This document shows, one piece after another, positions 43,839-58,991 of a stretch of DNA of 64,000 nt. Made by a program: the position numbers and the translations under genes. The stretch comes from Methylococcaceae bacterium. Lineage in GTDB: Bacteria > Pseudomonadota > Gammaproteobacteria > Methylococcales > Methylomonadaceae. The notes beneath the pieces are model-generated. The model was not told the origin of the DNA, ran no database searches, and worked only from the letters and a program-made list of their open reading frames with translations. How positions within the stretch are numbered: position 1 is the stretch's first letter; every line of letters starts with the position of its first letter. The stretch is from NCBI GenBank assembly GCA_013140705.1, contig JABFSH010000009.1:1-64000 (forward strand). Reading direction: 5' to 3'.

Positions 43839-44294
43839 ATGCTTGATGCGCCACAAGTCATTCTAACGGATGAACTGCTAACAGTGGTCATTCATCTCAC
43901 TATTCCCCGAGCTGAAATCAGCCATGTTATGGGCCCAGCTATCGCCGAAGTAATGTCCACCATTACCGCCCAGGGAGTCGATATTGTCGGACCCTGTTTT
44001 TCTTTCCACCCCCAAAGGCCAACGGAGACCTTTGATTTCGAGGTAGGTTTCCCGGTTAACATACCAATTACTCCCGCCGGACGCGTGAAGATGAGCAAAT
44101 TACCCGCCGCAAAAATAGTCCGCACCATCTATCGGGGTGGCTATGAAGGACTTGGCGTAGCCTGGGGTGAGTTTTATACGTGGAAGGGATTCTCTGTGCA
44201 AGACAGTCTTTGGGAATGTTATCTTTCAGGCCCTGAGTCCAGCCCTGACCCCGATAAATGGTGCACTGAACTTAATTGTCAGTTGACGGAATGA
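43839..44294 (+). CDS. GyrI-like small-molecule-binding protein
   Basis: A 151-aa protein that fits the GyrI-like/AraC-effector-binding (SOUL-like) fold: two repeats of beta-alpha-beta, with AIAEVMSTITAQGVDIVGPCFSFH near residues 35-60 and the closing LAAKIVRTIYRGGYEGLGVAWGEF (shortened in description) in the second repeat. GGAGG precedes the ATG at 43839; a TTG at 43827 is possible. Members bind hydrophobic drugs or act as GyrI-like inhibitors. It ends the small plus-strand cluster. Confidence 0.85.
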   Translation: MLDAPQVILTDELLTVVIHLTIPRAEISHVMGPAIAEVMSTITAQGVDIVGPCFSFHPQRPTETFDFEVGFPVNIPITPAGRVKMSKLPAAKIVRTIYRGGYEGLGVAWGEFYTWKGFSVQDSLWECYLSGPESSPDPDKWCTELNCQLTE

Positions 44295-44375
44295 GTGCTC
44301 CACAACTAATTATTTGAATGCCCGGTACGAGGAATTTTTTAGGTCAGGATTAGGTCGCCTGGGCGGGTCAATTTT

Positions 44376-44510
44376 CTTCCTGATTACGTATAACTTTCAG
44401 TTGAAATGGTAAATCCTCAAGTAGCTGCCATATCGGCAATCCATACCGGGTGACGTTCCTTGGGAAACTTATCGTTTCGATATGTGCTGGAGCTCATATG
44501 TAATCAGAAA
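44376..44510. repeat. Family-A repeat, diverged copy
   Basis: Starts CTTCCTGATTAC and ends GTAATCAG. The interior (TCAGTTGAAATGG, CTCAAGTAGC, GGGTGACGTTC..., GGAAACTTAT) follows the order of the better copy at 44545-44663 but with many substitutions, and it also keeps a trace of the extra internal element of the 56.6-kb copy (CGGCAATCCATACCGG). No target duplication is found. It lies tail-to-head with the next copy. Confidence 0.65.
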
Positions 44511-44535
44511 TAATTCCTATGAATTCGGACCAGTA

Positions 44536-44672
44536 AAGATTTAACTGATTACCCACAAGTTTCAGCTGAAATAGCAAACACTCAAGTAGCCGTCATGCCG
44601 GGGCGACGTTTTTTTGGAAACTTATGGCTCTTTGATATTGGCTGAAGCTTGTGGGTAATCAGGAAGATTTAA
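44536..44672. mobile_element. Family-A MITE-like element with 9-bp target duplication
   Basis: Core 44545-44663. Terminal inverted repeats of 22 bp (CTGATTACCCACAAG[T/C]TTCAGC) match at 21 of 22. AAGATTTAA stands directly left (44536-44544) and right (44664-44672) of the element, a perfect 9-bp target-site duplication, which shows that it moved by transposition. At about 119 bp it has no gene, so a transposase elsewhere must have mobilised it. The same sequence recurs inverted at 56622-56838. Confidence 0.85.
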
Positions 44673-44727
44673 CTTCGTTCGCCTTGAATTTGTCGAAAGG
44701 CCAGAAAGCTTCGAATCTCGGGAGGCA

Positions 44728-45378
44728 TTAGCGTATACCCTCCATAATTTTTTTAATTTCGTTCAGTGCTTGCCCTTGCTGCTCCGGAGTTAGCTTTGCA
44801 AAGTCCCTTTCAAATTCGGCCAGACTATAAACCTGTTGAACTGATGTTTTGTCTCGCACGATGCCGCAGTCGGCCAAGACCCGAGATAGGGGTTCTGCAG
44901 CATCTTTTAATGTAATATTGGCTGATAGCACAGTGCTGATTATGGTATTGATGCGGATAAAGATAGACTCCCCGGACAAAAGCTCCCTGATTATTCGGTC
45001 AATTTGTATATCCGAATAACCACGGCGTTTGTTATCCCTAAAGGTTCTCAATTTAATGATTACCGGAAGCTGTTTATCGATTTGATATTCGACCTCAAAT
45101 TCCCTGTCCTGGGAAGTAATCAAGCTGCTGGACTCGGCAACCAATTGCAATTTATTATTCTTGCAAAGGATTTCAAGTCTGATGTTGTCGTAAAGACCCC
45201 GTTTCGGCATGGGTGACCGCACAAAGCTAAAATTGAGATTGTTTAAATTGTCCCATTCTTTGTGATACGTCCAGGTTTCCATTTCTTGCTCGGCTATCGC
45301 ATGCACATTCGCCGGAAATAAAATCAACTGCATAAAAATACAACTGGCAATAATCCAGCATTTCAAACCGTAACACAT
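44728..45378 (-). CDS. Secreted protein of unknown function
   Basis: About 216 aa with a signal peptide (MCYGLKCWIIASCIFMQLILFPANVHA), so I start at the ATG at 45378; the frame extends to 45417. The mature protein is mixed alpha/beta with two cysteines (LEILCKNNK, LADCGIV), and ends in a helical, charged segment (FAKLTPEQQGQALNEIKKIM). No known domain recognised. It is a single gene downstream of the histidine-kinase cluster, separated by 196 bp, and next to the two family-A elements. Confidence 0.75.
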   Translation of the reverse strand: MCYGLKCWIIASCIFMQLILFPANVHAIAEQEMETWTYHKEWDNLNNLNFSFVRSPMPKRGLYDNIRLEILCKNNKLQLVAESSSLITSQDREFEVEYQIDKQLPVIIKLRTFRDNKRRGYSDIQIDRIIRELLSGESIFIRINTIISTVLSANITLKDAAEPLSRVLADCGIVRDKTSVQQVYSLAEFERDFAKLTPEQQGQALNEIKKIMEGIR

Positions 45379-45573
45379 AGATAGCAGTCCTGAACACACA
45401 AAAAAGGGTTGTAACACGGGTTTAAGATTATAACCTTATTGTTTTGAACATTGACGCTATATAGATGTTTCTCTCCCTGGAGAAGGGATAGTTTGCGAAT
45501 TTATTGGGATTGGTATGGGTTTCAGTTGGCGGGTTTGGGGTAAAACATGCTCTGAAATTTAGGTACATTTTCA

Positions 45574-47076
45574 TCAGGTCAGGTTTTTCGGAAAACAAAG
45601 AGTAAAGCATGTTCCAAAGCCCGGCTCAGATTCAACGGATACGGCGCCTTGCATGGCAACGGTAACCATGTTGTTGACGATGGCCAAACCCAGGCCGGTG
45701 CCGCCTTTGCCGCGGCCCGTCGTAAAAAAGGGATCGAAAATTTTACCGATGTGTTCCGGGTTGATGCCAGCGCCATAATCCCGGACTGTCAAAACAAACT
45801 GGGGAGCTTTAGCCGGCAGAACTCTATCCGAAACCGCAATGTCCACCTGGCCACCGATGCCGTTCGGGTAAGCATAGCGTTCTATATTCTGAAGAAAATT
45901 CATCATGATTTGTGTCAAGTAGCCGGGGTAGCCATGCCATTCCCGTGCTTTAAGGATGCCTGACGCATCAAGCCGGATATCCAGCCTGGCCTGTCTGGCA
46001 CTGATTTTAAAAAGGTCGACTGTATCTTTCAGCAATGCCGGCAGGTCGACGGTATCCTGATGTTCCAGCAACTGATCCACAGCAATTTTTTTAAAGTTCT
46101 CAATTAAACGGTGGGCGATATCGACGTTTTTTATTGTTAAGCCGGAAGACTCCAGCATGTCCTGAAGCAACGCTTCGGTTTCCGAATTTTCTCTAAACAA
46201 GGCCTGGATGTTCGGTAACGACAAACGATTCCGGATGATGCTCAGCCCCGTCTTGACAATACCCAAGGGTGTATTGATTTCATGCGCTACACCGGCCACG
46301 GCTTGTGTAAGAGCCCGGTGTCTTTCCAGTGCCGCTTCCGTTTGCATGGCCTGACTGGCATAACGGCGTTCCTGTTCACACAGCCGTTTCTTTTCCAGCG
46401 TCGCACTGATTCGGGCTTTTAACAACGTTGAATTAAAGGGTTTGGGTAAATAATCTTCGGCGCCTGCTTCAATGCACAATATAACCTGGCCCATATCCGA
46501 GCAAGCAGAAATCATGATGACCGGAATATTGCGTAAAACGGTATCGGCTTTCATGCGTTGAAGCACTTCATAGCCACCCATGTCCGGCATCATGACATCT
46601 AACAACACTAAGTCAAAGCGGTTGCTGGTCAGTTTTTCCAGGGCTTCAACGCCACTACCCGCCATTGCGATCTGATATCCCTGATTTTCCAGACGTCTGG
46701 ATAGAATTTCCTGGTTGGCTGGGTTGTCGTCAACGACCAATAAGCTTCCACGGCCGTTGCATTCCGTGTCGACCGGGTTAAAGTGGTGGGCGACCTGATC
46801 CGGAGATGCGGTTTGTTTGTGTGAGTCATTTGTATTGATAGCCGAATGGCATGAAGGGCTACACGTCAGCGGTGTTTGCAATTGCACCAACATTTGTTGA
46901 GCCGCGCAGGTGATTTTGCCTAAATCACCGATTAAGTTTTCCTGACCGCTACCGTCAGCCTCCTCGATCAGCATTTCAGAATAACCGATGATTTGATTCA
47001 ACCAGTTCAGCAGTTCATGGCGTGTAAGCGCATCAATGATCAGAGAGCTTTCCGATAACTTTTCGCAATGAGACAT
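45574..47076 (-). CDS. Hybrid histidine kinase with internal receiver
   Basis: A 500-aa cytoplasmic signalling protein. Order: a HisKA-like fragment (residues 18-45, RHELLNWLNQIIGYSEML), a receiver domain (about 110-225; LVVDDNPAN, phospho-acceptor in LVLLDVMMPDMGG), a coiled linker, a HisKA with VAGVAHEINTPLG (about residue 270), and HATPase_c (N-box MMNFLQNIERYAYP, G-box VRDYGAGI, GGTGLGLAIV). There is no membrane helix or sensor domain, so it must be driven by the neighbouring MHYT kinase or by a partner. Last gene of the hypX operon; two bases follow the preceding receiver gene. Confidence 0.93.
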   Translation of the reverse strand: MSHCEKLSESSLIIDALTRHELLNWLNQIIGYSEMLIEEADGSGQENLIGDLGKITCAAQQMLVQLQTPLTCSPSCHSAINTNDSHKQTASPDQVAHHFNPVDTECNGRGSLLVVDDNPANQEILSRRLENQGYQIAMAGSGVEALEKLTSNRFDLVLLDVMMPDMGGYEVLQRMKADTVLRNIPVIMISACSDMGQVILCIEAGAEDYLPKPFNSTLLKARISATLEKKRLCEQERRYASQAMQTEAALERHRALTQAVAGVAHEINTPLGIVKTGLSIIRNRLSLPNIQALFRENSETEALLQDMLESSGLTIKNVDIAHRLIENFKKIAVDQLLEHQDTVDLPALLKDTVDLFKISARQARLDIRLDASGILKAREWHGYPGYLTQIMMNFLQNIERYAYPNGIGGQVDIAVSDRVLPAKAPQFVLTVRDYGAGINPEHIGKIFDPFFTTGRGKGGTGLGLAIVNNMVTVAMQGAVSVESEPGFGTCFTLCFPKNLT

Positions 47077-47078
47077 GA

Positions 47079-47444
47079 TTAGACCAGAAGTTTATAAATT
47101 TTTGATAACAATCTCGATAAGTCGATAGGTTTAGTATCGTAATCATCGCACCCTACGTTCAATGCTTTTTGCCGATCTTCGCCCATAGCGTGTGCGGTTA
47201 GAGCAATGATGGGAATAATTCGTGTCACAGGATCGGATTTCAGCTGCAGGGTGGCTTCCCATCCGTCCATGATGGGAAGACTCATGTCCATCAGTATCAA
47301 ATCCGGTTGTGAGGTTCTTGCGAACTGAATGCTTTCGAGACCGTCAACGGCCAGGATGATCTGAAAGCCGTTTTTGATCAGTCGGCGCGATAACATATCA
47401 CGGTTGAGTTCATTATCTTCAACGAGCAACAGTTTGTTCATCAA
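47079..47444 (-). CDS. Stand-alone receiver (response regulator)
   Basis: A 121-aa CheY-like single-domain receiver. Acidic pair VEDNELNRD, phospho-acceptor aspartate in LILMDMSLPIMDGW (about residue 54), threonine in IPIIALTAHAMG and lysine in YDTKPID. No output domain, so it probably shuttles phosphate or binds a partner. It overlaps the end of the MHYT kinase gene by 26 bp and is 2 bp from the hybrid kinase gene. Confidence 0.95.
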   Translation of the reverse strand: MMNKLLLVEDNELNRDMLSRRLIKNGFQIILAVDGLESIQFARTSQPDLILMDMSLPIMDGWEATLQLKSDPVTRIIPIIALTAHAMGEDRQKALNVGCDDYDTKPIDLSRLLSKIYKLLV

Positions 47445-49368
47445 TGCATGACCAAGGGAGTTTTACTGTAAATATGGAACCCACGTCCGGGGTGCTTTCA
47501 ATCGCTATGCTGCCACCCATCATTTCGCAAAACTTTTTGGTGATGGTCAAGCCAAGACCGGTGCCGCCGTATTTGCGTGTTGTCGAATTATCCGCCTGAG
47601 TAAAGGCATCGAATACCTTATCGACCTGCGCTTTGGACATACCGATACCGGTATCGCGAACTTCAAAAATAATCCAGCCGGATTCAGATGAATGGTCGAC
47701 CGAAACCGTGAAATGAATGTCGCCTGCATGGGTAAATTTTCCGGCATTACTGAGCAAGTTCAACAAAATCTGCCGCAGCTTAATGGAATCGGCACTGATC
47801 GCAGGTAACCAGTCAGGGCGTTCGATGGATAACCTATTGGCATTTTTATCGATGATGGGCTGAACCGTATGGGTAATTTCATTGATCACCGAGGGTAAAT
47901 GAATGTCCTCGAGAAATAATTCCATTTTGCCGGCTTCAATCTTGGATAAATCCAGAATTTCATTGATTAAAGTCAGCAAGTGTACGGCGGATGAATGGAT
48001 TTTTAACAAATCACTAATATAACCATCCTGTTTTGAAGCCTGTGCTTCTTCCAGTAACATTTCACTGTAACCAATGATGGCATTCATGGGTGTTCTTAAC
48101 TCATGAGACATGTTGGCTAAAAACGCGCTTTTGGCGTTATTGGCTTCTTCGGCAACTGCACGTGCCTTTTGTGCTTCCGCGATGGCCTTCGATAATTCGA
48201 TTTCGGTTTGCTTGAGTTCGGTAATATCGGTGCGGATGGCAACCGTGCCGGTATTCCAGACCCGTCGCTCGCTGACGCGCATCCAGCGATCTCCCCTGAA
48301 ATGCTCGACAAAGTTTTCTCGAGGCGTGCGATGCCGGGTCATGCGTTCGGTCAGCCAGTCCTCAAGACAATTTTCGGCATCAAGAATCAAACCGGACTGG
48401 GCGGCCCTTCGCATGATCGTCTCGAAGGCCATGCCCGGTACGATTGGAGTACCAAAATTCATGATTTCCCGATAACGCTGATTGCATTCTACCAAGCGAT
48501 CCTGCATGTCAAATAAACAGAAGCCATCGGCGATACTTTCTATGGCTTCCCGCATGCGTGAGCGGCTGACGGCTTCCTCCCGTGTGGCTTGTTGAATGCG
48601 GCTGTCGACAATGGTAATGAAAATAGCCAGTGAAGCGATCAATACCGAGGTAAAGGAAACCCAAAATACCAGCGCTAACGGATTTAAGGAGCTTTCTGCC
48701 CAGGTCGGTGATGCATCGCCTGCAAAAAAATAAGTAGCCGCCATACCGGAGTAATGCATACCGGAAATCGCAAAGCCCATGATCAGTGCCGCACCGACCT
48801 TTCCCCACACGGCGCTATTGATCCTGGTCTTTTGAGCAAGTAAATAATCGATTGTCAAGGCGACGCCGGACAGCACCAAGCCGATCAGCACCGAAACGAC
48901 CACCAGTTTGGGTTCGAACATCATGATCAGGTGCCGGGAAATGCCCTGCATGGCGGCCATGCCGATATAATGCATGGTGCCTATGCCGCCGCCCATCACG
49001 ACGCTGACCAAAAAGGTCAACGTACTGATTTTGGGTCGACTGATTAATTCCAGCATGACATAGCTGGCCAACACTGCGGGCACCGTTGACACTAACGTGA
49101 TAAATACGTCGTAACTCACCGCGATCGGCAGTTGGAGCGCCAGCATGGCGATAAAATGCATTGCCCAGATGCCGCCGCCCATGGTTAATGAACCGGCCAG
49201 CAGCCAAATGCGACGTCTATTGCCCGAATCGGCGGCCCGGATCCGGCCTGCAACACTTAAGGCTGCATAGGATGCCAAACTGGCTATGGATAAGACCACT
49301 AATCCGGCATCATAATGGCTCTGTAATGCCAGGCTCAGATCTCTGCCATCGTAAAAATAATGGTTCAT
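47419..49368 (-). CDS. MHYT-domain sensor histidine kinase
   Basis: A 649-aa membrane kinase. Residues 1-250 form an MHYT domain with three copies of the motif: WAMHFIAML, GTMHYIGMAA and SGMHYSGMAA, between six or seven helices. MHYT is proposed to bind copper and sense O2, CO or NO at the membrane. A PAS domain (about 270-380; DGFCLFDMQDRLVECN), HisKA (FLANMSHELRTPMNAIIGYSEML, shortened) and HATPase_c (NLLSNAGKFTH, DTGIGM, GGTGLGL) follow. It lies 27 bp after the REC gene and overlaps the next receiver. Confidence 0.95.
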   Translation of the reverse strand: MNHYFYDGRDLSLALQSHYDAGLVVLSIASLASYAALSVAGRIRAADSGNRRRIWLLAGSLTMGGGIWAMHFIAMLALQLPIAVSYDVFITLVSTVPAVLASYVMLELISRPKISTLTFLVSVVMGGGIGTMHYIGMAAMQGISRHLIMMFEPKLVVVSVLIGLVLSGVALTIDYLLAQKTRINSAVWGKVGAALIMGFAISGMHYSGMAATYFFAGDASPTWAESSLNPLALVFWVSFTSVLIASLAIFITIVDSRIQQATREEAVSRSRMREAIESIADGFCLFDMQDRLVECNQRYREIMNFGTPIVPGMAFETIMRRAAQSGLILDAENCLEDWLTERMTRHRTPRENFVEHFRGDRWMRVSERRVWNTGTVAIRTDITELKQTEIELSKAIAEAQKARAVAEEANNAKSAFLANMSHELRTPMNAIIGYSEMLLEEAQASKQDGYISDLLKIHSSAVHLLTLINEILDLSKIEAGKMELFLEDIHLPSVINEITHTVQPIIDKNANRLSIERPDWLPAISADSIKLRQILLNLLSNAGKFTHAGDIHFTVSVDHSSESGWIIFEVRDTGIGMSKAQVDKVFDAFTQADNSTTRKYGGTGLGLTITKKFCEMMGGSIAIESTPDVGSIFTVKLPWSCIDEQTVAR

Positions 49369-49395
49369 GACGGCTAGTGTTGCCTCAATTGCCTG

Positions 49396-50244
49396 CTATG
49401 AATCTACTCGACTTTGTTTCCAGATGACGGCCAGTTGTTTAACAAAGCCATGCATCAGCGTCACCACAAGATCCGGTGGCGTAAACCGGCTTTTAAACAA
49501 AAATGACACCTGCGACTGGGCAGTAGTGGCGATAACCTCGATCAGCCGATAGCCTTGATTATCCATCACATAGCGGTCGCCGCCCGGATTGAGTGGCATG
49601 CCTTCGAGGGCCCGAAGCCGGTTTAGCAATTGCAAGCCACGCTCGGCATCAATCTCGTCGGCAAACAGCACGTCACCGTCAATAATCAGCCATCGTGGCG
49701 TTTCTGCCTGTTCCGGACTCAAGCCGCCGATGGGCGACAGCGTGTAAAGCAGTTTTCGTCTCGAACCCGCCGCCTCAATGAGGTTATTTGACAATTCGAT
49801 GGTCGAGAGCGCCATGCCATACGCCAGGTATTGTCTGATACTGCTTTTTATCAACGAATACAACTTATCTTCAGTAGCTTCAACTTTCGTGAAGTAACCG
49901 TTGATATCGTATTTGTCGATGACGTCACGTTCCGGCGCGATGCCTGGCTGCCCGGTACGGATATAGATTTGAGTCAGTTTATTGCCCAGGTTGTTGCGGA
50001 TATAATCGCACAGCTCAAGACCGGCATACTCGGTTTCCATGACCACGTCAAGAAACGCAACGGCCAGCGAACAGCCCACTTCAACATCATCATTGATCAG
50101 GGCAATGGCTTCGATGGTACTGTTGGCCGTGTAAATTTTTAGCGGCAAGCCATATACTTCGATATTTTTCATGGCCAAACGTGAAATAGCCAGGACATCC
50201 GGTTCGTCATCAACCAGCAGAACCGGCCAGTATTTAAAAAACAT
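49396..50244 (-). CDS. REC-domain protein with unknown C-terminal domain
   Basis: A 282-aa protein. Residues 8-150 are a receiver domain (LLVDDEPDVL, phospho-acceptor in AFLDVVMETEYAGLEL near residue 67) of the variant found next to DUF3369 in RpfG-like proteins: KYDINGYFTKVE, TEDKLYSLIKSSIRQYLAYG. The C-terminal 120 residues (from about 160) are not a known DNA-binding or HD-GYP output to me. It starts 12 bp after hypX, so it is the first signalling gene of that operon. Confidence 0.85.
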   Translation of the reverse strand: MFFKYWPVLLVDDEPDVLAISRLAMKNIEVYGLPLKIYTANSTIEAIALINDDVEVGCSLAVAFLDVVMETEYAGLELCDYIRNNLGNKLTQIYIRTGQPGIAPERDVIDKYDINGYFTKVEATEDKLYSLIKSSIRQYLAYGMALSTIELSNNLIEAAGSRRKLLYTLSPIGGLSPEQAETPRWLIIDGDVLFADEIDAERGLQLLNRLRALEGMPLNPGGDRYVMDNQGYRLIEVIATTAQSQVSFLFKSRFTPPDLVVTLMHGFVKQLAVIWKQSRVDS

Positions 50245-50256
50245 GGCACACTCCTT

Positions 50257-52050
50257 TTAGTAAGCCAGAGGCTGTCTTAATTCACTGAGCTTGGTGGCAT
50301 CAAGACGCATGTGTTTGGCAAGATAAGCGGCAGTCTCCTTAGGCCTGACTTTATGGACAAAGTTATAGCGGGCCTCATGATAATTCACTTCGCCACCGTA
50401 AAATTTACCGGAGAAATTGATTTTCATTTTTTGCAGTTCAGCTGCGCGATAGGCCGCCAAGGGTTTTACACGCTCGTCTTTATGCCGGATTTGTTGTTTT
50501 TCTTCGAGCAATATTTGATACTGCGGGCTTGAGGCCAACGCTTCTGCCTTTAGTCTGACCTGTTGCAGGTAGATGTCGTAATGGTCCGACAGGATTTCAT
50601 CGATGTAGCCGATCGCCTTGGCTTTTTTCGTACCGATGGGCAGCGGCGTTTCGGTGAGTTCCAGAGCTTTAACGGGACCAACCCGTTTGGGGAGTGAATA
50701 CGTCCAATACTCTGAGCCGTATAGGCCCATGGTTTTATAATGCGGATTAAAAATGACGCCTTCGCGAGCCCAAACCTGGTCGGCTGCCAGAATCGCCATT
50801 GCGCCACCTGCGCCGCAGCCGCCCCAGACAGCCGATAGGGTTAATTTGGATTCCGTGGTCAGAATAGCGTGAATTATATCGTCAATGGCGTTGATATTGC
50901 GCCAGGACTCATTGGCCGGATTTTCCGCCGCTTCAATCATATTCAGATGAATGCCGTTTGACCAAAAATCGCGTCCTCCCATCAGGACAAGCACTTTAGT
51001 GGGCCGCGCCAATGCCAGACGATAGGACTCCAGTAGACGCCGGCATTGGGTAGTGCTCATCGCACCATTATGAAAATCAAAGTACAGAAAACCGACGTTG
51101 TTTTTTTCTTCATACCAAATTTCCTTGAAGGTCAGCTCTGCTCCCATATACAACGGATCGATAGAGGCTTCGGGAGTATCATCAAGAAGGCTGCCTAATA
51201 CTTTTGCAGCCGGTAATTTGAAATCAAATTGCTTGTTGTGCGAGAGAAAGCGCTTATAAAACGGAATCTTGACAATGTTTTTGCGTTTCAGGTGCGATAT
51301 CCAGACGGCACCGTCTATGGCGGCACGACAAATGGCGCCATGGCGCTGGGCAATGATCGCTCCGGGTTGCCAGCCTTGCAGCGAACTTTCTTCATGGGCG
51401 CCGTATAAATAATATTCCTGATTGTCGATAACATCTAACACGCCAGGTGCGCTGTCACTGGCATTTATTTTTTTGATGATGGTTGCGACATGGTCATTTT
51501 CCCAGTCAATTTTTCGTTCCTGCTGTTTCATCAAGGGCCGAAGCTGACCCCGTACTTCGGGCTTCGAATAATCGAGCGGAATGGGTTTGAACGTTTTGGA
51601 TTCGACCCGTTTGACAGCGTTCAGCATCGCTTTAATGGCTGCCTGGCTGACTTCGCGCCGGTAAATGCCGGCTTTACTGGCTTGTCGCATGGAAAATGTT
51701 TCTGTTGCCCAAATATCACCGGCATCCATTTCTTCAACAGCCTGCAACACAGTTACCCCCCACTCCTGTTCTCCGCTCATGATGGCCCAGTCCAGTGATG
51801 AGGGGCCTCTATCGCCAACAATACCGGGATGAATGATTAAACAGTGGTGCTTGCTCCAGACATCTTCGGGTATTTTTTCCTTTAAAAACGGACAAATGAT
51901 CAAATCGGGTTGAAAAAAGGTAACACCTTTCCTGATGTCGTCGGGATTGAGCGCCAGGGTGATCGAGATATCATGGCCCAAGGCTTCAAGCTCTACATGC
52001 GCTCGTTGACACAGGCCGTTATAAGACGAAGAAATGAGTAAAATTCGCAC
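50257..52050 (-). CDS. hypX: HypX/HoxX, formyl-to-CO hydrogenase-maturation enzyme
   Basis: A 597-aa two-domain cytoplasmic enzyme. The N-terminal ~270 residues are a 10-formyl-tetrahydrofolate transferase (LLISSSYNGLCQR..., the catalytic HPGIVGDRGPSSLDWAI); the rest is a crotonase-like domain (GGRDFWSNGIHLN, GGCGAGGAMAILAADQVWARE, FNPHYKTMGLYGSEYWT). HypX moves a formyl group to CoA and releases CO, the active-site ligand of [NiFe]-hydrogenases under oxic conditions. No hydrogenase or other hyp gene is in the window. It heads a five-gene operon with an MHYT kinase; alternatives are another formyl-dependent carbonyl role. Confidence 0.9.
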   Translation of the reverse strand: MRILLISSSYNGLCQRAHVELEALGHDISITLALNPDDIRKGVTFFQPDLIICPFLKEKIPEDVWSKHHCLIIHPGIVGDRGPSSLDWAIMSGEQEWGVTVLQAVEEMDAGDIWATETFSMRQASKAGIYRREVSQAAIKAMLNAVKRVESKTFKPIPLDYSKPEVRGQLRPLMKQQERKIDWENDHVATIIKKINASDSAPGVLDVIDNQEYYLYGAHEESSLQGWQPGAIIAQRHGAICRAAIDGAVWISHLKRKNIVKIPFYKRFLSHNKQFDFKLPAAKVLGSLLDDTPEASIDPLYMGAELTFKEIWYEEKNNVGFLYFDFHNGAMSTTQCRRLLESYRLALARPTKVLVLMGGRDFWSNGIHLNMIEAAENPANESWRNINAIDDIIHAILTTESKLTLSAVWGGCGAGGAMAILAADQVWAREGVIFNPHYKTMGLYGSEYWTYSLPKRVGPVKALELTETPLPIGTKKAKAIGYIDEILSDHYDIYLQQVRLKAEALASSPQYQILLEEKQQIRHKDERVKPLAAYRAAELQKMKINFSGKFYGGEVNYHEARYNFVHKVRPKETAAYLAKHMRLDATKLSELRQPLAY

Positions 52051-52125
52051 GGAGGTTCTCCTTTGTTTTTTTTATTGTGTTCGGATGTATGGGCTACGGG
52101 CTAAATTGCATTTATTCTTGTGCAA

Positions 52126-52157
52126 GGGTAGAGACGCAAAACCTTGCGTTTCTACCC
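52126..52157. repeat. Palindromic repeat before hypX
   Basis: GGGTAGAGACGCAA (52126-52139) and TTGCGTTTCTACCC (52144-52157) form a 14-bp stem with one G-T pair and a 4-nt loop, between the GlxA gene and hypX. Neither strand has a T-tract. GTAGAGACGCAA palindromes are common small dispersed repeats in bacterial genomes, so this could be a REP-like unit or a transcript-end stem. Confidence 0.6.
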
Positions 52158-52178
52158 GCTTTTCTGACATTTCATTTT

Positions 52179-53192
52179 CTATTTAAAGTTTGATCGATAC
52201 TCCTGGGGGGTAATTTTTAAAAATCGTTGAAAGGTTCGCCGCATTTGTTCGGCGGTATTGAATCCACACTTGTTGGCGACGCTTTCCATCGGTAAGTCGG
52301 TGCGTAACAACATGTTGCGTGCTGATTCCAGACGAATACGTTCAATAAATTTGGCAGGCGTCATGCCAATTTCCTGGCAAAACAGCCTGGAAAAATTACG
52401 CGGGCTCATGGCCATGCGATCAGCCAGGATATTTACATTCAATTCGGCATCGGGATGACTGACAATCCAGGCCTGTAATTCGCGAAAATCCTTGCGATTC
52501 TTGGCTTCATTGAATACATAGGAACTGAACTGCGACTGACCGCCGGGACGGCGCATGAAGATCAGCATTCCGCGGGCAACCGCTGATGCAACTTCCCAGC
52601 CCCAATCTTCCTCAACCAGACTCAAGGCCAGATCAATTCCGGCGGTAACGCCGCCCGAGGTATACACATTGCCATCGCGAACAAATATTTTATCGGGCTG
52701 AATTTGAAGGCCCTGAAATTCATTCGCCATCTGATCGCAATATAACCAATGTGTAGTTGCCTTACGATTGTTCAGCAAACCGCTTTCGGCTAATAAAAAG
52801 GCGCCGGTACAAATTGATACCATACGTCTAACTTTAGGCATCATCTGTACAAGCCACTGCTTCGATTTTTCATCCCTCAGACCGTCGACAATGTAAGGGG
52901 CTCCTGCCACCAATAAAGTATCAATGTTTTCGGTGGCATCCTGATAAGCCATATCAGCAACAATGCTCAGTCCTGAAGACGTTTTAACCGGTCCTGCTTC
53001 TTCTGCAACCAGTGACAGTGAGTAGACGCATTCGGTTGGGCCAATTTTACCTTCCAACCGTAATGCGATATTGGCGAAACAAAACACATCCATAGGCCCC
53101 GAAACATCGACTAATTCGCAGCCCGGATAAATCAGCATGGCAACATGGCGATGCTGCAATGTTTGCGAAGGACGATTCGGACTCATGGGCAC
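52179..53192 (-). CDS. GlxA/FtrA-type AraC-family regulator
   Basis: A 337-aa regulator. Residues 10-190 form a DJ-1/PfpI-like domain (VAMLIYPGCELVDVSGPMDVF, nucleophile-elbow cysteine in VSICTGAFLLAESGLL), which usually binds a ligand. Residues about 235-337 are the AraC helix-turn-helix pair (LADRMAMSPRNFSRLFCQE and ESVANKCGFNTAEQMRRTF). AraC-type dimers bind direct repeats, and two such repeats lie upstream of the genes at 53486 and 56208. It probably controls those and possibly hypX. 63 bp separate it from the coiled-coil gene upstream. Confidence 0.93.
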   Translation of the reverse strand: MPMSPNRPSQTLQHRHVAMLIYPGCELVDVSGPMDVFCFANIALRLEGKIGPTECVYSLSLVAEEAGPVKTSSGLSIVADMAYQDATENIDTLLVAGAPYIVDGLRDEKSKQWLVQMMPKVRRMVSICTGAFLLAESGLLNNRKATTHWLYCDQMANEFQGLQIQPDKIFVRDGNVYTSGGVTAGIDLALSLVEEDWGWEVASAVARGMLIFMRRPGGQSQFSSYVFNEAKNRKDFRELQAWIVSHPDAELNVNILADRMAMSPRNFSRLFCQEIGMTPAKFIERIRLESARNMLLRTDLPMESVANKCGFNTAEQMRRTFQRFLKITPQEYRSNFK

Positions 53193-53255
53193 CTGCCTTT
53201 TGCTGACAATTACTTTCCGGTTATTTAAACAAACTCAGTAATGTACGCTTAAATT

Positions 53256-53486
53256 TCAGCCGCCATTTCCAATGTTTTCCCAGGTATTGCTGCCGGATTC
53301 TTCCGAAGCATGCAGTTGCCTGGTGATTTCTCGTTGTTTGGCCCGTAAATCTTCAAGGTCACGGTAATACTCGAATTTGGATTCTGTCGATTGTTGACGG
53401 GACAGCACGACTAATTGATCAATTTGAGCGCTGTGCTCTATTAATTCCGCTACCAATTGTTGTCTGCTTTCATGCGTGGCTAACAT
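53256..53486 (-). CDS. Small coiled-coil protein
   Basis: A 76-aa highly charged helical protein (MLATHESRQQLVAELIEHSAQIDQ..., ...LEDLRAKQREITRQLHA), probably one coiled coil with a flexible tail. The ATG at 53486 is chosen because GGAGG lies 8 nt upstream; the frame is open to 53609. No known family recognised. It is the first gene below operator 2 and precedes the GlxA-type regulator by 63 bp, so it may be cotranscribed with it. Confidence 0.75.
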   Translation of the reverse strand: MLATHESRQQLVAELIEHSAQIDQLVVLSRQQSTESKFEYYRDLEDLRAKQREITRQLHASEESGSNTWENIGNGG

Positions 53487-53715
53487 AATTAAATCCTCCG
53501 ACTTGTTGGACCTGCTATTGGGAAAACATAGGTCCGGGTTGCTTGATAAATACCTTGTATTTTTTATTCTAAACATCAAGTTCACATGCAGGAAAAGCCA
53601 GCTTGGCAAGGTCGATGCTGAAAAGCAGCGAATGCCTCAAGTTATTTTGTTCCCCTCTATAGGTTTCGTTGGGATTTACCTTGTGATATAGATTGCCTCT
53701 ATTCCTTGCAAGGTA

Positions 53716-53750
53716 AATGACAAAAATACTGCATAATCGGACAAAATTTG
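53716..53750. promoter_or_regulatory. Direct-repeat operator 2 (TTTGTC, 21-bp period)
   Basis: Two half-sites, TTTGTC on the minus strand (53719-53724 and 53740-53745 as GACAAA), are exactly 21 bp apart. The whole 35-bp block matches that at 56383-56417 at about 24 positions, including AATGACAAA, GCAT and TCGGACAAA. It lies about 230 bp upstream of the coiled-coil gene. Confidence 0.65.
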
Positions 53751-53800
53751 TAAATGCGATAGCGTGACGGCAAGTACCTTTAAATCATGTCATCGCTGCA

Positions 53801-54817
53801 TTAATCGTGATCTTTTCTTGCTAAATTCGCCAGAAGTTTGGCAATCTCGTGTTCGGGCACATTCAGTTCAATCAGTGCATTCTTAAGATGCCACAGTGCG
53901 GTATTCAGATAAATGTCGCTTAAGTGTGGGGTGATCTGTTTTCTATAAAATTCACGCAAATCTTTCGGCTGATTCTGGTCGGTTCCATAAGCGCCAAATA
54001 CGGTTTTTAGAAAATGTCGTTGCTGGTCCAGCAGAGTCTGGAGATTAAGTGCATCCAGAAATGGGCTGAGTTTGGCATCCAGTAATAATTTTCGCACGAC
54101 CGACTCGGTAATTGCCTGAATTGCAGGTTCTCCACCAAGTCTCTGGTAAAGCGGAATGTCTTGCAAAGCAAAAAAATCACTGCGCTTAAGGCCGTCATCG
54201 TCCGTACCCCAAGTAATATTCTTATCCGCTTTTTCAAGCAAGGGAATATGTTTGGAACAATGAATATAGGCTTCTTCAACTTCAACCATGATCCAGCGTT
54301 CAGGACGGTGTTTGCCTTCGGTATTTATTTCATTGATGACATTTTTAGGCAGATCCCGGCGGAATTTCAGCAAATCGTCGTGTTCGACAATTTTAGCTTT
54401 GCCATTTACATGCAGGCCGACCGTGCTGGCAAAAAAATCGACGAAAATCATGCCAATATGGGGGTTTTCAATGATATTGCCCTGACTGGCCAATACACCG
54501 TTACCGCGATATTCGGGATATACGAGATAATTGTCATCCAAAACTCTTACGAAGCCTGGCTTACCGAAGCGAAAAGAGCAATCACATTCGCCGTGTTTAT
54601 CGGACGTTGCGATAAACAGAACTTCCTGCCTGGCGATAAATTCTTTCATGACCGGTGACAAATATTTTAATACCTGTTTGTCATAAAAACGCAAGGCACG
54701 CTGCGTGGTGCCATATTTGAGTTGTAAATAGTGTTCACCCTGCGATCCCGGCAACAAAGTTACCGGCGCCGTGGTCCTCAGAGTGTTTTTGGGTTTGGTT
54801 TTAAATAAACGGAACAT
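53801..54817 (-). CDS. PNPOx-like flavin domain fused to truncated globin
   Basis: A 338-aa two-domain protein. Residues 45-215 resemble a pyridoxamine-5'-phosphate-oxidase-like FMN-binding split barrel (EFIARQEVLFIATSD, GFVRVLDDNYLVYPEYRGNG, RPERWIMVEVEEAYIHCSKHI). Residues 223-335 resemble a truncated hemoglobin (LYQRLGGEPAIQAITESVV, RHFLKTVFG). The proximal heme histidine, expected in an LR-x-x-H pattern, is a tyrosine here (LREFYRKQI). It follows the Fe-S reductase gene by 44 bp, so the two are probably partners. Confidence 0.85.
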   Translation of the reverse strand: MFRLFKTKPKNTLRTTAPVTLLPGSQGEHYLQLKYGTTQRALRFYDKQVLKYLSPVMKEFIARQEVLFIATSDKHGECDCSFRFGKPGFVRVLDDNYLVYPEYRGNGVLASQGNIIENPHIGMIFVDFFASTVGLHVNGKAKIVEHDDLLKFRRDLPKNVINEINTEGKHRPERWIMVEVEEAYIHCSKHIPLLEKADKNITWGTDDDGLKRSDFFALQDIPLYQRLGGEPAIQAITESVVRKLLLDAKLSPFLDALNLQTLLDQQRHFLKTVFGAYGTDQNQPKDLREFYRKQITPHLSDIYLNTALWHLKNALIELNVPEHEIAKLLANLARKDHD

Positions 54818-54861
54818 GTTGTCTCTCCTTTGGTTTTTGATTGATTCCCTACGTGATCTTG

Positions 54862-56208
54862 CTAAACATCCAGTTCGACATTTGAAGCCGGATAGGTGCA
54901 GCAGGCATAAATCCAGCCTTTTTTACTGTCGACCTCATCGATTTCCGCCTGATCCATCATGTCTACCTTGCCCTTCAGGCATTTGGTCATGCATTCGCCG
55001 CACTGGCCGCTACGGCACTCATGACCAATCAGTACGCCGATTCTTTCGGCGAGCTCCAACAGCGTGACACGCCCATCGGAGTCAATGGTTTTGCCCGATT
55101 TGGCAAATTTGACTTGGTAGTTGCCGGTTTCATGCCGCAAGGGCTGGTTGAGACAGGAGTTTTGCGGCTTTATGATGGGACTATTGACGGTGTAACTTTC
55201 ACAAAATAATTTACTTGATGGCAAATTCAGCTTCAGCAAACTTTTTTTACACATTGCCATGAAAGAATCGGGTCCGCATAAATAAACCGTTCGTTCCGGC
55301 AGATCCGGCACGAGGTTTGCGATCATTTTTTCATTAATTCGTCCGGTTAAGCCGAGCCACTGGGAGTAATCAATCGTCTCCGCTGTCAGGGTAATGGCCA
55401 GTTTGATGTTCTGGTGGCGTGCTGCGATTAATTGCAATTCATCACGATAAATAATATCTGCAGGGCTTCGAAAAGACAGCAACAAGCTGACATCCATACG
55501 CGCTTCAGTGTCGACCAGCCAGCGCAGCATGGACATAATGGGGGCTATGCCACTGCCGGCGGCTAGAAACAGCATTTTTTCGGTGGCGTGGGTAACACAA
55601 CTGAATCTTCCGAATGGCCCCTTCAAGTTCAGGGTGTCGCCGATGTTTAGATGATCATTGAGCCAGTTGGAAACAATCCCGCCATTCGGTGCTCGTTTTA
55701 CGGTAAGGTCGATGATTTTGGCCCGGGCAGGGCTTGATGCCAGACTGTACGACCGTTTAAATTCCTGGCCCGAGATAGCCATTGTCAGCGTCATGTATTG
55801 TCCGGACAAATAATCAACGCTTTGACCATCAAGCCGTCCGAGTCGAAACGTTTTGACATCGGGCGTTTCATCATAGCAATTTAGAACAGTGTATTGAGCA
55901 CTCAAGACGGCTTCGTTCGGCACGGGTAGCCTGTTTGAACGGCAAATTTGAACAGCCTCAGGAGAATCAGAACAGTCTGTCAACAGGGGCGATTTCTGCC
56001 CGAAAACTCGCTGATGATTTTCAGCTTCAGAGGGTTTATTGTTTGACTCGGAAAACAGGGTGCTGAACGGGCTGCGGCCTTGGAGCGAGGAGTCGGCAGG
56101 GTAGCATCGGGCAAAATAGATTGTGCTTTCAGGCGTTGCCGATAAAACATTCGACTGCTTGAATAATCGGTGGATCCAGCGATTGGCAGATTTGTCATTA
56201 TTATTCAT
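54862..56208 (-). CDS. FAD/NAD(P) reductase with C-terminal 2Fe-2S ferredoxin
   Basis: A 448-aa electron-transfer protein. Residues about 110-330 form a ferredoxin-NADP reductase module (KRSYSLASSP for FAD, GSGIAPIMSMLRWLV and YLCGPDSFM for NAD(P)). The C-terminal ~90 residues carry a plant-type 2Fe-2S centre: CRSGQCGECM plus a final C at CCTYP. The N-terminal ~100 residues are unrecognised. It resembles Hcr or the reductase half of flavohemoglobin-like systems, and may feed electrons to the PNPOx-globin. ATG at 56208 has GGTGG upstream; the frame extends to 56307. Confidence 0.9.
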   Translation of the reverse strand: MNNNDKSANRWIHRLFKQSNVLSATPESTIYFARCYPADSSLQGRSPFSTLFSESNNKPSEAENHQRVFGQKSPLLTDCSDSPEAVQICRSNRLPVPNEAVLSAQYTVLNCYDETPDVKTFRLGRLDGQSVDYLSGQYMTLTMAISGQEFKRSYSLASSPARAKIIDLTVKRAPNGGIVSNWLNDHLNIGDTLNLKGPFGRFSCVTHATEKMLFLAAGSGIAPIMSMLRWLVDTEARMDVSLLLSFRSPADIIYRDELQLIAARHQNIKLAITLTAETIDYSQWLGLTGRINEKMIANLVPDLPERTVYLCGPDSFMAMCKKSLLKLNLPSSKLFCESYTVNSPIIKPQNSCLNQPLRHETGNYQVKFAKSGKTIDSDGRVTLLELAERIGVLIGHECRSGQCGECMTKCLKGKVDMMDQAEIDEVDSKKGWIYACCTYPASNVELDV

Positions 56209-56382
56209 AATCACCACCCTCGATCGTGTTGTGATGTCACCCAATATTTTCCCAAGGCAAAAACTTAATGGGAGAAAGTGCCGGTGAGCCAGAGTGTCAA
56301 AGTTCAATAGGTCCGTGTTTGGCTTTAATCGTGCACTAACGGCTTACATCTGTCAATAATGGAGGTTAAATTATCCAAGCAC

Positions 56383-56417
56383 AATGACAAATTTCACGCA
56401 TTTTCGGACAAATTGTT
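56383..56417. promoter_or_regulatory. Direct-repeat operator 1 (TTTGTC, 21-bp period)
   Basis: Half-sites GACAAA at 56386-56391 and 56407-56412 (TTTGTC on the minus strand) are 21 bp apart, about 175 bp upstream of the reductase gene. It is near-identical to the block at 53716-53750. Direct repeats two helical turns apart are the usual binding pattern for AraC-family dimers such as the GlxA-type protein in this module. Confidence 0.65.
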
Positions 56418-56621
56418 GACTGAGTGATAGTTGGCCCCGAATTCGGCTTGGGATTCGCTATCGCCCGCTGACTTGTCAGCGGAAAGTCATGTTACAGCTG
56501 TTGTGGCAACATGACCTATGTTATGCCCAATTTAGGTGGATCGTCATTGATCAAATCCTATTCTTACTGAATTTCCGGATTGTCAATAATTAAACCCTGC
56601 AGAGTCAAGGCAAAGTTGTTC

Positions 56622-56838
56622 CTGATTACGTATAAGCTTCAGCCAATATCAAAGAGCCATAAGTTTCCAAAAAAACGTCGCCCCGGCATGGACTGCCGGG
56701 GTCCAGGCTACACGGATGTAAACCCAGTGATGTGTTGTCAGCGAGTCACATCCCTGTGTTCTGGATACCGGCAATCCATGCCGGCATGACGGCTACTTGA
56801 GTGTTTGCTATTTCAGCTGAAGCTTGTGGGTAATCAGG
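56622..56838. mobile_element. Family-A element with nested inverted repeat
   Basis: Terminal repeats CTGATTAC-GTATAAGCTTCAGC and GCTGAAGCTTGTGG-GTAATCAGG pair well. The outer parts are the reverse complement of the element at 44545-44663; the middle carries about 97 extra bases bounded by CCGGCATG and itself an inverted repeat (CCGGCATGGACTGCCGG with CCGGCAATCCATGCCGG). Flanks AAGTTGTT and AAGATGTT are a degraded target duplication. The rest of the 56209-57206 gap has operator 1 and no gene. Confidence 0.8.
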
Positions 56839-57206
56839 AAGATGTTTTCCCCAGCCAGCATTTTCAACCGTTCTTTTTACGGTCAAGGATTTTTTCGGCA
56901 TCCGCTTTTTCAAGTGATCATCGGCTAATCCCGTAGAAGAACGGAAAAAGACGACCCTGATCCGTCATCATTGTTTCGTGCCGATCAGAAAATTATGGCG
57001 TATCGCAAACTTAGTTGTTTTAAACTATGTGGCAGCTTATCCCTTATCGCTGTTGTCGTGCCAGACCGAAGGGCATGATGGGATAATTTTAGCGGCTTCC
57101 TAAACTGCCAGCCATCAGGAGTGGTGCCCACCTTTTTGGGTTAATGTCGGGGCAAAATGTATAAATATCTTTTCGTATCAGTAGTTTAATAAAGATTAGA
57201 AAAAGG

Positions 57207-58991
57207 ATGATAGCCATCATGACACACATACACAATCAGATATTGCCTGAAGGTACGCAACTCGGCGTCTACGAAATCAAAAAAATCTCAAAAGTTGATA
57301 CTTTCGATATCACCTATCGCGCCTGGAATCATCACCTGAAGGAATGGGTGGAAATACAAGAGTATTTTCCTTACGATTTCGCTACTCGCGCACCCGATGG
57401 TTTGGGTGTCGAACCAAAATTCCCAAGCGATAAGGAAAATTTTAACTTTGGCTTAAAGGCATTTTTGGACCAGGCAGAGATTCTCACCCAAATCGAACAT
57501 CCCAATATTGTCAAAGCTGAAAACATTTTGCAATTCAATGAAACAGCTTACCTTATTATGGATTACAAGGAAGGTGTGCCGCTTTCAACGTTGGTAAGGT
57601 CGCCTGCGGCAATTGCCGACACGGAATTAAAATTCATTCTGGTAGCCATGCTGAATGCCTTGCAGAAACTCCACGAATACAATATTGTGCATGGTAATAT
57701 CAAGCCGGCAACTATTATTCTGGGCAAGAATGGCGAACCGCTATTGACCGATTTCGCGGCCGCCCGGTTGGCCATCGCTGGACATACTGCCATGCTCGAG
57801 GGCGAATTAGCCCCTGGTTACGCACCGCCGGAACTTTATGAGCATAATGAGTTCGGCCCCGCCAGCGATTTTTATGCGTTGGGCGCAACGATGCATTATT
57901 GTATTACGCATAAGCAACCCATTGCCGCTCAGAGCCGGATAATGGCTTTAAGCAAAGGCAAACCCGATCCGATGACTCCACTCTCTGAATCTCCGGGCAT
58001 CCCGTATGGTGCGGCGTTGTTGCAGGCAATAGACTGGATGCTACGGCCTGAATATAAAAATCGACCGCATTCAGCAACCGAGATTCTGGTGCTATTAAAG
58101 TCAGAGCTTGTCAACGACCAAGCAGGGCCGATAACATCCAGGCAAGAATCCATGGATGTTGCCCATGGCAGTCCGATAGCCAGGAACCCCGTCTGGGCCG
58201 CTGGCATGGTCGGGATAACAGTATTGATTGTTGCTGGAATATGGTTTGGAAATAAACCTTCAGAATTAAGTGCTGACAAGTCCAGTATAGTCACTGCTCA
58301 GCCTTTATTGCCAGATAAGGCCGGCAAAATCACAGTTACACCAGAGGTAAATGAAGATCAAAGCACCGCGCTTTCCCCCACTCAGGCAAGCCAGGAAGCT
58401 GTCCAGGACAAAATATCCGAGCACACCGATAAAGCAATAAGCGATCCTGCAAACCAGCCAAAGCAAGCCAATGAAGAAAGCGAACTGGAAATAAGTGCTG
58501 ACGACAACCTGCCTCAAAATGGCCTGATAGCGGATGGCACGTCTTCCTCAGCAGGCAAGTCGGAGCTCAGGGATAAATATACTGGCGAACAGGAAACTGA
58601 CAGCACGCAAAAGCTGGCAGTAAATGATGAGTCACTGCATTCGTCCATGAAGCAGAAATTGTTAGAAAAGCCGGCCGACAAAGGTACGATTAATGAATAC
58701 TTGACCGCTGCTAATAAAGCGATGAAAGCCGTGCATTTAACCACCCCATCGAGAGACAATGCCCATAAATACTACCAAATGATTCTAGCCCTGGAGCCAG
58801 ACAATGCTGAAGCGCTTGCCGGGCAGCAGAAAATAGTTGATCGCTATATTTGGTTTATACAGAAAGCAAAGGCTGAAGGTAAACCAAACTCGGCAAAACG
58901 AGCTTTACAAAAGGCTGAATCTGTCTTGCCGGATGACCCCAGACTAAAGAGACTTCGTGCGGAATTAGCTGCTAGTCCGGAGAAGAATTGA
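57207..58991 (+). CDS. Membrane-anchored protein pseudokinase
   Basis: A 594-aa protein. Residues 18-300 have a Hanks-type kinase fold (HPNIVKAENILQFN, IMDYKEGVPLSTLV, GPASDFYALGATMHY). Catalytic residues are lost: the ATP lysine of the usual VAIKE segment is glutamine (VEIQEYFP), the HRD aspartate is asparagine (VHGNIKPATIIL), and the glycine loop is degenerate; DFG reads DFA. One transmembrane helix (MVGITVLIVAGIWFG, about residue 335) leads to a disordered, acidic region and a TPR-like C-terminus (KRALQKAESVLPDDPRL). It is probably a scaffold. The start may be 57207 or 57219. Confidence 0.85.
   Translation: MIAIMTHIHNQILPEGTQLGVYEIKKISKVDTFDITYRAWNHHLKEWVEIQEYFPYDFATRAPDGLGVEPKFPSDKENFNFGLKAFLDQAEILTQIEHPNIVKAENILQFNETAYLIMDYKEGVPLSTLVRSPAAIADTELKFILVAMLNALQKLHEYNIVHGNIKPATIILGKNGEPLLTDFAAARLAIAGHTAMLEGELAPGYAPPELYEHNEFGPASDFYALGATMHYCITHKQPIAAQSRIMALSKGKPDPMTPLSESPGIPYGAALLQAIDWMLRPEYKNRPHSATEILVLLKSELVNDQAGPITSRQESMDVAHGSPIARNPVWAAGMVGITVLIVAGIWFGNKPSELSADKSSIVTAQPLLPDKAGKITVTPEVNEDQSTALSPTQASQEAVQDKISEHTDKAISDPANQPKQANEESELEISADDNLPQNGLIADGTSSSAGKSELRDKYTGEQETDSTQKLAVNDESLHSSMKQKLLEKPADKGTINEYLTAANKAMKAVHLTTPSRDNAHKYYQMILALEPDNAEALAGQQKIVDRYIWFIQKAKAEGKPNSAKRALQKAESVLPDDPRLKRLRAELAASPEKN

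Follow-up and report, generated by a model that had tools for sequence, protein, structure and literature searches.

HypX converts 10-formyl-tetrahydrofolate (formyl-THF), via formyl-CoA, to carbon monoxide (CO), according to the available text of PMC12134894, and this paper and PMC6802093 both present it, in the parts available, as a hydrogenase factor; the latter proposes His74, Asp80, Asp109, Tyr416, and Glu426 as the catalytic residues of the Aquifex aeolicus enzyme. HypX without a hydrogenase is not unheard of, since the accessible portion of PMC2974642 already tabulates such a case for Photobacterium profundum 3TCK. CoxC of Afipia carboxidovorans, an MHYT-LytTR repressor, has an MHYT domain that responds to CO, needs copper, and is reversed by O2 (PMC11347149, as far as the excerpted text goes), which makes the link between MHYT domains and CO stronger than the initial annotation of the DNA described here had noted.

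Here we describe a hypX gene that is followed by genes for an MHYT-containing phosphorelay, in a 64,000-nucleotide stretch of DNA from a Methylococcaceae bacterium (hereafter the window; genomes, contigs, and loci are cited by our G, C, and L numbers). The genome, that of a Methylococcales methanotroph, comprises 4.28 Mb in 82 contigs and is 99.97% complete. Nine minus-strand open reading frames (ORFs) lie where the initial annotation had placed them (ORF list, Pfam, NCBIfam; Table 1), and the last five, from hypX through a 282-residue receiver (REC) protein (REC282), an MHYT sensor kinase, and a single-domain receiver to a hybrid kinase, are separated by gaps of 12, 27, −26, and 2 bp, likewise confirmed. 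The −26 bp overlap assumes a TTG start, and an ATG one codon on would make it −23. Shine-Dalgarno-like AAAGGAG stretches lie just 5' of hypX and of REC282. This five-gene block is more than a chance arrangement, because it recurs in relatives and because searches of 301 Methylococcales genomes found REC282 at no other place. The association of hypX with the relay is real and wider than the initial annotation saw, and the possibility it had raised, that the neighbourhood is not conserved in relatives, does not apply. Overall, we tentatively read the block as a CO-forming module that no longer belongs to hydrogenase maturation and has its own gas-reading phosphorelay, a serious possibility that falls somewhat short of probable.

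HypX and its genomic relation to hydrogenases

The window HypX matches the A. aeolicus HypX structure (6j0p; HoxX) with a phmmer E-value of 1.1e-157 over residues 1-584 of 597, and its PF00551, PF02911, and PF00378 domains all score above their cut-offs. By alignment, the proposed catalytic residues correspond to H74, D80, D109, Y438, and E447 of the window protein, and all five are kept in 96 of 98 aligned Methylococcales HypX proteins (the exceptions being L107 and L153) and in 39 of 40 from outside the order; nine short or broken proteins, eight of them from Methylococcales, were excluded from these counts and from the trees, and L193, L196, L227, L231, and L235 were recovered by tblastn. 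Judged by its sequence, the window HypX is a genuine homologue of formyl-THF decarbonylase, and because it both matches 6j0p and has all the catalytic residues, an active decarbonylase would be the plain expectation, though not a result. Of the three HypX proteins of Crenothrix polyspora, L107 (G008:C126) is without two catalytic residues, His74 and Asp109, and is possibly a degenerate copy or one of altered function. In G002, G022, G126, G143, and G152 the hypX gene appears to be split or broken (L002-type), a possible sign of gene decay or of an error in assembly.

We read the neighbourhood of 106 hypX loci, with an average of 5.7 kb upstream and 5.9 kb downstream, from 86 of the 87 Methylococcales genomes that contain HypX. 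Not included were the broken gene of G022, represented by the short L047, and a second G180 contig piece; at least 1.5 kb was present upstream in 96 loci and downstream in 91. Genes of the hyp/hox kind are near none of the 106 loci, whereas hyp genes are near hypX in 19 of 20 control loci from other Gammaproteobacteria (Fisher 1.3e-21, with loci taken as independent; all Fisher tests here assume an independence of genomes or loci that does not hold). The hyp genes were called by tblastn at 60 bits or more, a threshold below which the short HypA and HypC may score, but HypB, HypD, HypE, and HypF should not. HypD was detected in all 20 control genomes. A hydrogenase cluster beside hypX is thereby ruled out for the window and for all 106 Methylococcales loci read. 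That hypX has lost its hydrogenase linkage across the order, and that a non-hydrogenase reading applies there, is well supported, and the genomic context in part supports the non-hydrogenase role suggested as a possibility in the initial annotation. In two replicons from elsewhere, an Acaryochloris plasmid (L192) and a Mycetohabitans megaplasmid (L194), hypX is annotated as a hydrogenase maturation protein, but the PLSDB gene tables, themselves incomplete, show no hyp/hox gene within 8 kb of it.

HypX might also supply CO in trans for the oxic maturation of an NAD-linked HoxH hydrogenase, with the O2/CO-sensing relay only tuning this supply. The genome of the window contains the enzyme that this would serve: contig C38 encodes a HoxH with both CxxC motifs (LCGICPVSH and DPCLSCATH), Hox-type reductase subunits, and hypA, B, C, D, E, and F, with no hypX within the 19.5 kb read. 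This [NiFe]-hydrogenase is real, and the initial statement that no hydrogenase is present holds for the window and fails for the genome. A second PF00374 protein of the same genome (G000:C26, L091:8959-10656) has no CxxC motif, so that PF00374 counts alone overstate hydrogenases; it sits in an operon of membrane-complex-sized genes, which reads as a hydrogenase-related complex rather than a hydrogenase. Because HypD is also present in 11 of the 13 genomes that host the relay, supply in trans keeps some probability. In a 61-genome sample, HypX is commoner among genomes with hydrogenase-type PF00374 proteins (16/43) than among those without (3/18), a difference that is not significant (p 0.14); for group-1-like large subunits, too, no significant association was found (4/12 vs 15/49, p 1.0).

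Besides the lack of hyp genes near any Methylococcales hypX, the distribution of the genes across the order argues against supply in trans. Among the 301 genomes, HypX (E ≤1e-40) is present in 87, HypD in 230, and both in 72, an association that is not significant (Fisher p 0.10); 158 of the 230 HypD genomes are without HypX, and 15 of the 87 HypX genomes are without HypD. Seven HypX genomes that are at least 91% complete (G008, G017, G128, G204, G208, G211, and G223) lack HypD, HypF, and hydrogenase-type PF00374, where the absence of HypD is deduced from the list of 230 matching genomes, the non-matching ones being only partly listed. Two of the seven, G208 and G128, show a weak PF00374 match to positions 1-67 only, like the C26 protein described above. 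The HypD-less genomes outside the seven include G022, with a HypF match, and G117 and G257, with stronger PF00374 matches. One of the seven is a relay host: Crenothrix polyspora RSM_CP1 (G008), which is 99% complete, has no HypD, HypF, or PF00374 match and keeps three HypX genes (L107 among them) without a hydrogenase. The other possibility that the initial annotation had raised, that every host of the block carries a full oxic hydrogenase set, does not apply either, G008 being a host without one. The other HypD-less relay host, G003, is 77% complete and has PF00374 matches; the independence of the relay from hydrogenases therefore depends on the G008 lineage. Taken together, we consider supply in trans unlikely.

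The phosphorelay genes that follow hypX

REC282 is present in 13 of the 301 Methylococcales genomes, every time directly after hypX. A search of 369 genomes of the class matched 22, including the window's own, and the matches in the other 21 cover the receiver part only, reaching at most position 194 of 282. The receiver scores 24.6 bits against Response_reg, below the Pfam cut-off of 30.2, yet it is detected in 10 of 10 members, retains D12, D13, D66, T97, and K120 as invariant residues, and has a receiver fold in structure comparison of its model (Z 12). The C-terminal domain is modelled as mixed alpha-beta, with a mean pLDDT (predicted local distance difference test score) of 86 when modelled alone, compared with 71 for the whole protein and 38-63 for the other four domain models. 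Its best structural matches are near background, both for 5lly_B (Z 8.4, 115 aligned, root-mean-square deviation (rmsd) 3.6) and for MglB (Z 7.4, 105 aligned, rmsd 3.8), and the best Foldseek E-value is 0.011. The domain thus has no clear structural match, and its matches to GAF, LuxR-type, and roadblock folds are likewise near background.

The block encodes the parts of a two-component phosphorelay, namely HisKA and HATPase domains on both kinases, a phosphoacceptor histidine, and receivers, of which that of REC282 is below cut-off. The MHYT domain of the window kinase scores 111.2 bits against a Pfam cut-off of 21, and apart from this kinase no MHYT protein was found in the genome. Its three Met-His motifs (M70-H71, M132-H133, and M204-H205) and its phosphoacceptor H422 are invariant in the eight kinases compared. 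An MHYT kinase follows in 12 of the 13 REC282 loci; the exception, L112, has a kinase with a cyclic-nucleotide-monophosphate-binding domain upstream of hypX-REC282 and no MHYT kinase downstream. The hybrid-kinase alignment, which takes in this upstream kinase, was left out of consideration.

The HypX proteins of relay loci form one clade of 14 rows, of which L113 alone is without the relay (support 1.0 in FastTree; SH-aLRT 100 in a quick IQ-TREE run on 80 of the 138 aligned proteins), and in the IQ-TREE tree this clade is separate from that of hyp-linked HypX. Relay loci span two families of the order (f1 and f4). Across 11 loci (55 pairs), the distances of HypX, REC282, and the MHYT kinase mirror one another (Spearman 0.89-0.96), but shared descent alone would produce such a correlation.

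A common output gene of the relay is ruled out, as the genes after the block differ among L005 (from the isolate Methylomicrobium sp. RS1; a P-type ATPase and CorA), L007 (Cas3 after a 134-residue ORF), L009 (UPF0182 on the other strand), and L003 (no family). The cas3-type gene of L007 (L007:11783-14428) is two ORFs beyond the block. Aerobic CO dehydrogenase was likewise rejected as a target, since a CoxL model gave no above-cut-off match in any of the 13 relay hosts; weak matches occur in 2 of the 13 vs 5 of 14 controls.

The relay may also run the other way, with MHYT sensing O2 or nitric oxide (NO) and REC282 switching HypX, so that CO, or the removal of formyl-THF, would serve metabolism, for example in one-carbon overflow or in restraining a haem or copper enzyme. 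The exclusive association of REC282 with hypX and the lack of a DNA-binding domain among the five proteins would fit such an arrangement, as would the formate-THF ligase and hemerythrin partners of HypX in sister clades (see below). However, we know of no metabolic use of CO of that kind in methanotrophs. In addition, in the one MHYT regulator tested, the response is to CO and O2 is merely an antagonist, according to the part of PMC11347149 available. We therefore regard this reversed direction as rather unlikely. An operon that hypX and the relay have merely inherited together, with separate functions, is improbable: L113, with a relay-clade HypX and no relay, and L112, with REC282 and no downstream MHYT kinase, would fit it, whereas the block persists in two families, and at HypX identities as low as 62%, while other neighbours change, and REC282 stays confined to hypX in the 301 genomes.

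Other genes and domains associated with hypX

Four genes precede hypX in the nine-gene run (Table 1), and the initial annotation had joined them to it as a redox regulon. The DJ-1/AraC regulator is part of a wider hypX theme: 70 of the 96 Methylococcales loci with sufficient upstream DNA, including 6 of 12 such relay loci, have a relative of it no more than 1.2 kb upstream of hypX. The reductase and PNPOx-globin genes do not generalize in the same way: they precede AraC-hypX in 4 of 96 loci, those of the window, G208, G292, and G204, and among the 13 relay loci in the window only, where L183 and L187 have too little upstream DNA. The order reductase, PNPOx, AraC regulator, HypX is common to L114, L115, and L119, and two of the four genomes, G204 and G208, are without HypD. 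The globin match of the PNPOx fusion is weak, at 21 bits exactly on the Pfam cut-off. The reductase ORF can start no earlier than the codon at 56307, and the end given in the initial annotation (56417) is about 110 bp further upstream. The sll1863-family protein has no match in the other locus tables read, the window's own copy aside, and its gene is probably a bystander.

Table 1. Features of the hypX region of the window, in transcription order where they belong to the nine-gene run.
Feature	Position	Strand	Evidence and remarks
[2Fe-2S] FAD/NAD oxidoreductase	54862-56307	minus	FAD_binding_6, NAD_binding_1, Fer2 (Pfam); first in transcription order
PNPOx fused to truncated-globin-like domain	53801-54817	minus	PNPOx_N 8.9e-15; Bac_globin 4e-4
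sll1863-family stress protein	53256-53609	minus	NCBIfam NF052504 40.6 bits, cut-off 35
DJ-1/PfpI (GATase)-AraC regulator, GlxA/FtrA-type	52179-53192	minus	Pfam; NCBIfam FtrA and GbdR below cut-offs
hypX, 597 residues	50257-52050	minus	Formyl_trans_N, Formyl_trans_C, ECH_1 (Pfam)
REC282, receiver plus C-terminal domain without assigned family	49396-50244	minus	Response_reg 24.6 bits
MHYT-PAS-HisKA-HATPase sensor kinase, 649 residues	47419-49368	minus	Pfam MHYT 2.3e-32
Single-domain receiver, 121 residues	47079-47444	minus	Response_reg 6.8e-24
Hybrid kinase REC-HisKA-HATPase, 500 residues	45574-47076	minus	Pfam; last in transcription order
Hairpin, 14 pairs	52126-52157		Inside the 128-bp gap between AraC gene and hypX
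Divergent ORF, 594 residues	57207-58991		Upstream of the block; Ser/Thr protein kinase-like by eye only

In sister lineages of the order, HypX is found with other partners. In 49 of the 106 loci (L094:9070-11271 and 48 others), HypX is a fusion protein of about 720-870 residues that ends in a hemerythrin domain (Pfam Hemerythrin 1.9e-8 on one scanned). The conserved His, Glu, and Asp positions of these tails, which we take to be the diiron ligands of hemerythrin, are kept in 43 to 46 of 47 aligned. A domain of the O2-binding type is thus joined to a predicted CO-forming enzyme. Formate-THF ligase, which makes the HypX substrate, is encoded within 2.5 kb downstream of hypX in 4 of 91 loci (L128, L129, L131, and L132; PF01268 9.5e-261), suggesting that the carbon of the CO would come from formate at these loci. 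In 12 of the 91, an AAA_26 (dethiobiotin-synthetase-like) ATPase gene comes after AraC-hypX (e.g., L096:6900-7646). None of the AraC regulator, hemerythrin fusion, formate-THF ligase, reductase/PNPOx, or AAA_26 associations occurs at the 20 control loci. In Andreprevotia, Photobacterium, and an Oceanospirillaceae genome (L012, L013, and L019), a methyl-accepting chemotaxis protein is encoded after hypX, with an N-terminal membrane region that is His-rich by eye; L019 additionally carries hox genes and hypF.

As for non-coding features, the hairpin in front of hypX (Table 1) is possibly a terminator, an operator, or a dispersed palindrome, and did not match a palindrome pattern with which it was compared. 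Terminator-like sites number 23 in the region vs a shuffled mean of 14.5, while promoter-like sites (21) show no excess over chance (19.8). No Rfam family matched within the window, and no tandem repeats were found at 44000-58000.

A putative role for the block and comparison with known systems

The co-occurrence of hypX and an MHYT relay suggests that methanotrophs may make and read CO as an internal signal, an idea that is plausible and unproven. As a CO-forming module with its own gas-reading relay, the block would work as follows. In a methanotroph, where the one-carbon flux is large, HypX would convert a small amount of formyl-THF to CO; a copper MHYT kinase in the membrane would read this CO against O2; and phosphate would reach REC282 by way of the receiver and the hybrid kinase. 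REC282, in turn, would most likely act on HypX or a partner of HypX, because it occurs exclusively next to hypX, and this would close the loop. CO would thereby serve as a joint readout of formyl-THF supply and O2. In sister lineages the enzyme instead has a hemerythrin tail or is coupled to formate-THF ligase or a GlxA/AraC regulator. We infer CO as the signal, REC282 as the end of the phosphate path, and the action of REC282 on HypX.

Several points weigh against this reading. The genome of the window owns a [NiFe]-hydrogenase with hypABCDEF on another contig, and it is among the 11 relay hosts with HypD. Within HypX, a single clade has the relay (13 of 91 loci), and most Methylococcales HypX do without it. 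Pfam identifies no DNA-binding output domain among the five block proteins, the relay blocks compared share no downstream target gene, and the role assigned to REC282 derives from its position only. Predicted CO formation, CO sensing, and relay output are unproven biochemically, and the window kinase could respond to O2 or NO, as a specificity for CO in one MHYT regulator does not have to extend to it. Accepting the block as a CO-forming module with a gas-reading relay therefore does not extend with equal strength to the full proposal, in which HypX makes CO from formyl-THF, the copper MHYT relay of the same operon reads CO vs O2 in a dedicated, hydrogenase-free signalling circuit, and the HypX-hemerythrin, AraC-HypX, and HypX-formate-THF-ligase arrangements are other wirings in sister methanotrophs; this we consider possible, though doubtful.

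With a predicted CO maker and an MHYT domain of the CO-responding kind in one operon, the question of a CO signal would become testable in methanotrophs. The loci described here also call for caution in genome annotation where hypX is used as a marker of oxygen-tolerant hydrogenase. No paper was found that combines HypX with hemerythrin, or either HypX or MHYT with methanotrophs, in a literature search that excluded preprints and most of the subscription literature. For HypX with signalling, none of the matches listed was visibly on topic by title or the start of the abstract.

The window HypX resembles HypX/HoxX of Cupriavidus necator and A. aeolicus in domain order and catalytic residues, with about 45% identity to the C. 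necator protein. The latter lies within the hyp/hox clusters of pHG1 and serves a hydrogenase, in contrast to the Methylococcales loci, where hyp genes were near none of the 106. The NO-sensing two-component relays of NosP/NahK and H-NOX likewise feed a diatomic gas into a multi-component phosphorelay, as proposed here. They use haem, whereas copper is proposed for the window relay, and we know of no gas-making enzyme encoded in the same operon with them.

The available text of PMC11347149 permits a comparison with CoxC. The window kinase has the same three-motif MHYT membrane domain, and its gas chemistry is presumed to be the same. Unlike CoxC, it is a kinase with a phosphorelay instead of a protein with a fused DNA-binding domain, and its neighbour HypX is predicted to make CO and not to burn it; in addition, an above-cut-off CO dehydrogenase large subunit is lacking in the 13 relay hosts. 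A further likeness is to the bacteriohemerythrins of methanotrophs (PMC12607906), and the main text of that paper, in the form available, does not contain the words hydrogenase, formyl, enoyl, fused, or fusion. As in that work, judging from the part available, the domain occurs in Methylococcales, but unlike the proteins it describes, the hemerythrin domain in the sister lineages of the window is fused to HypX.

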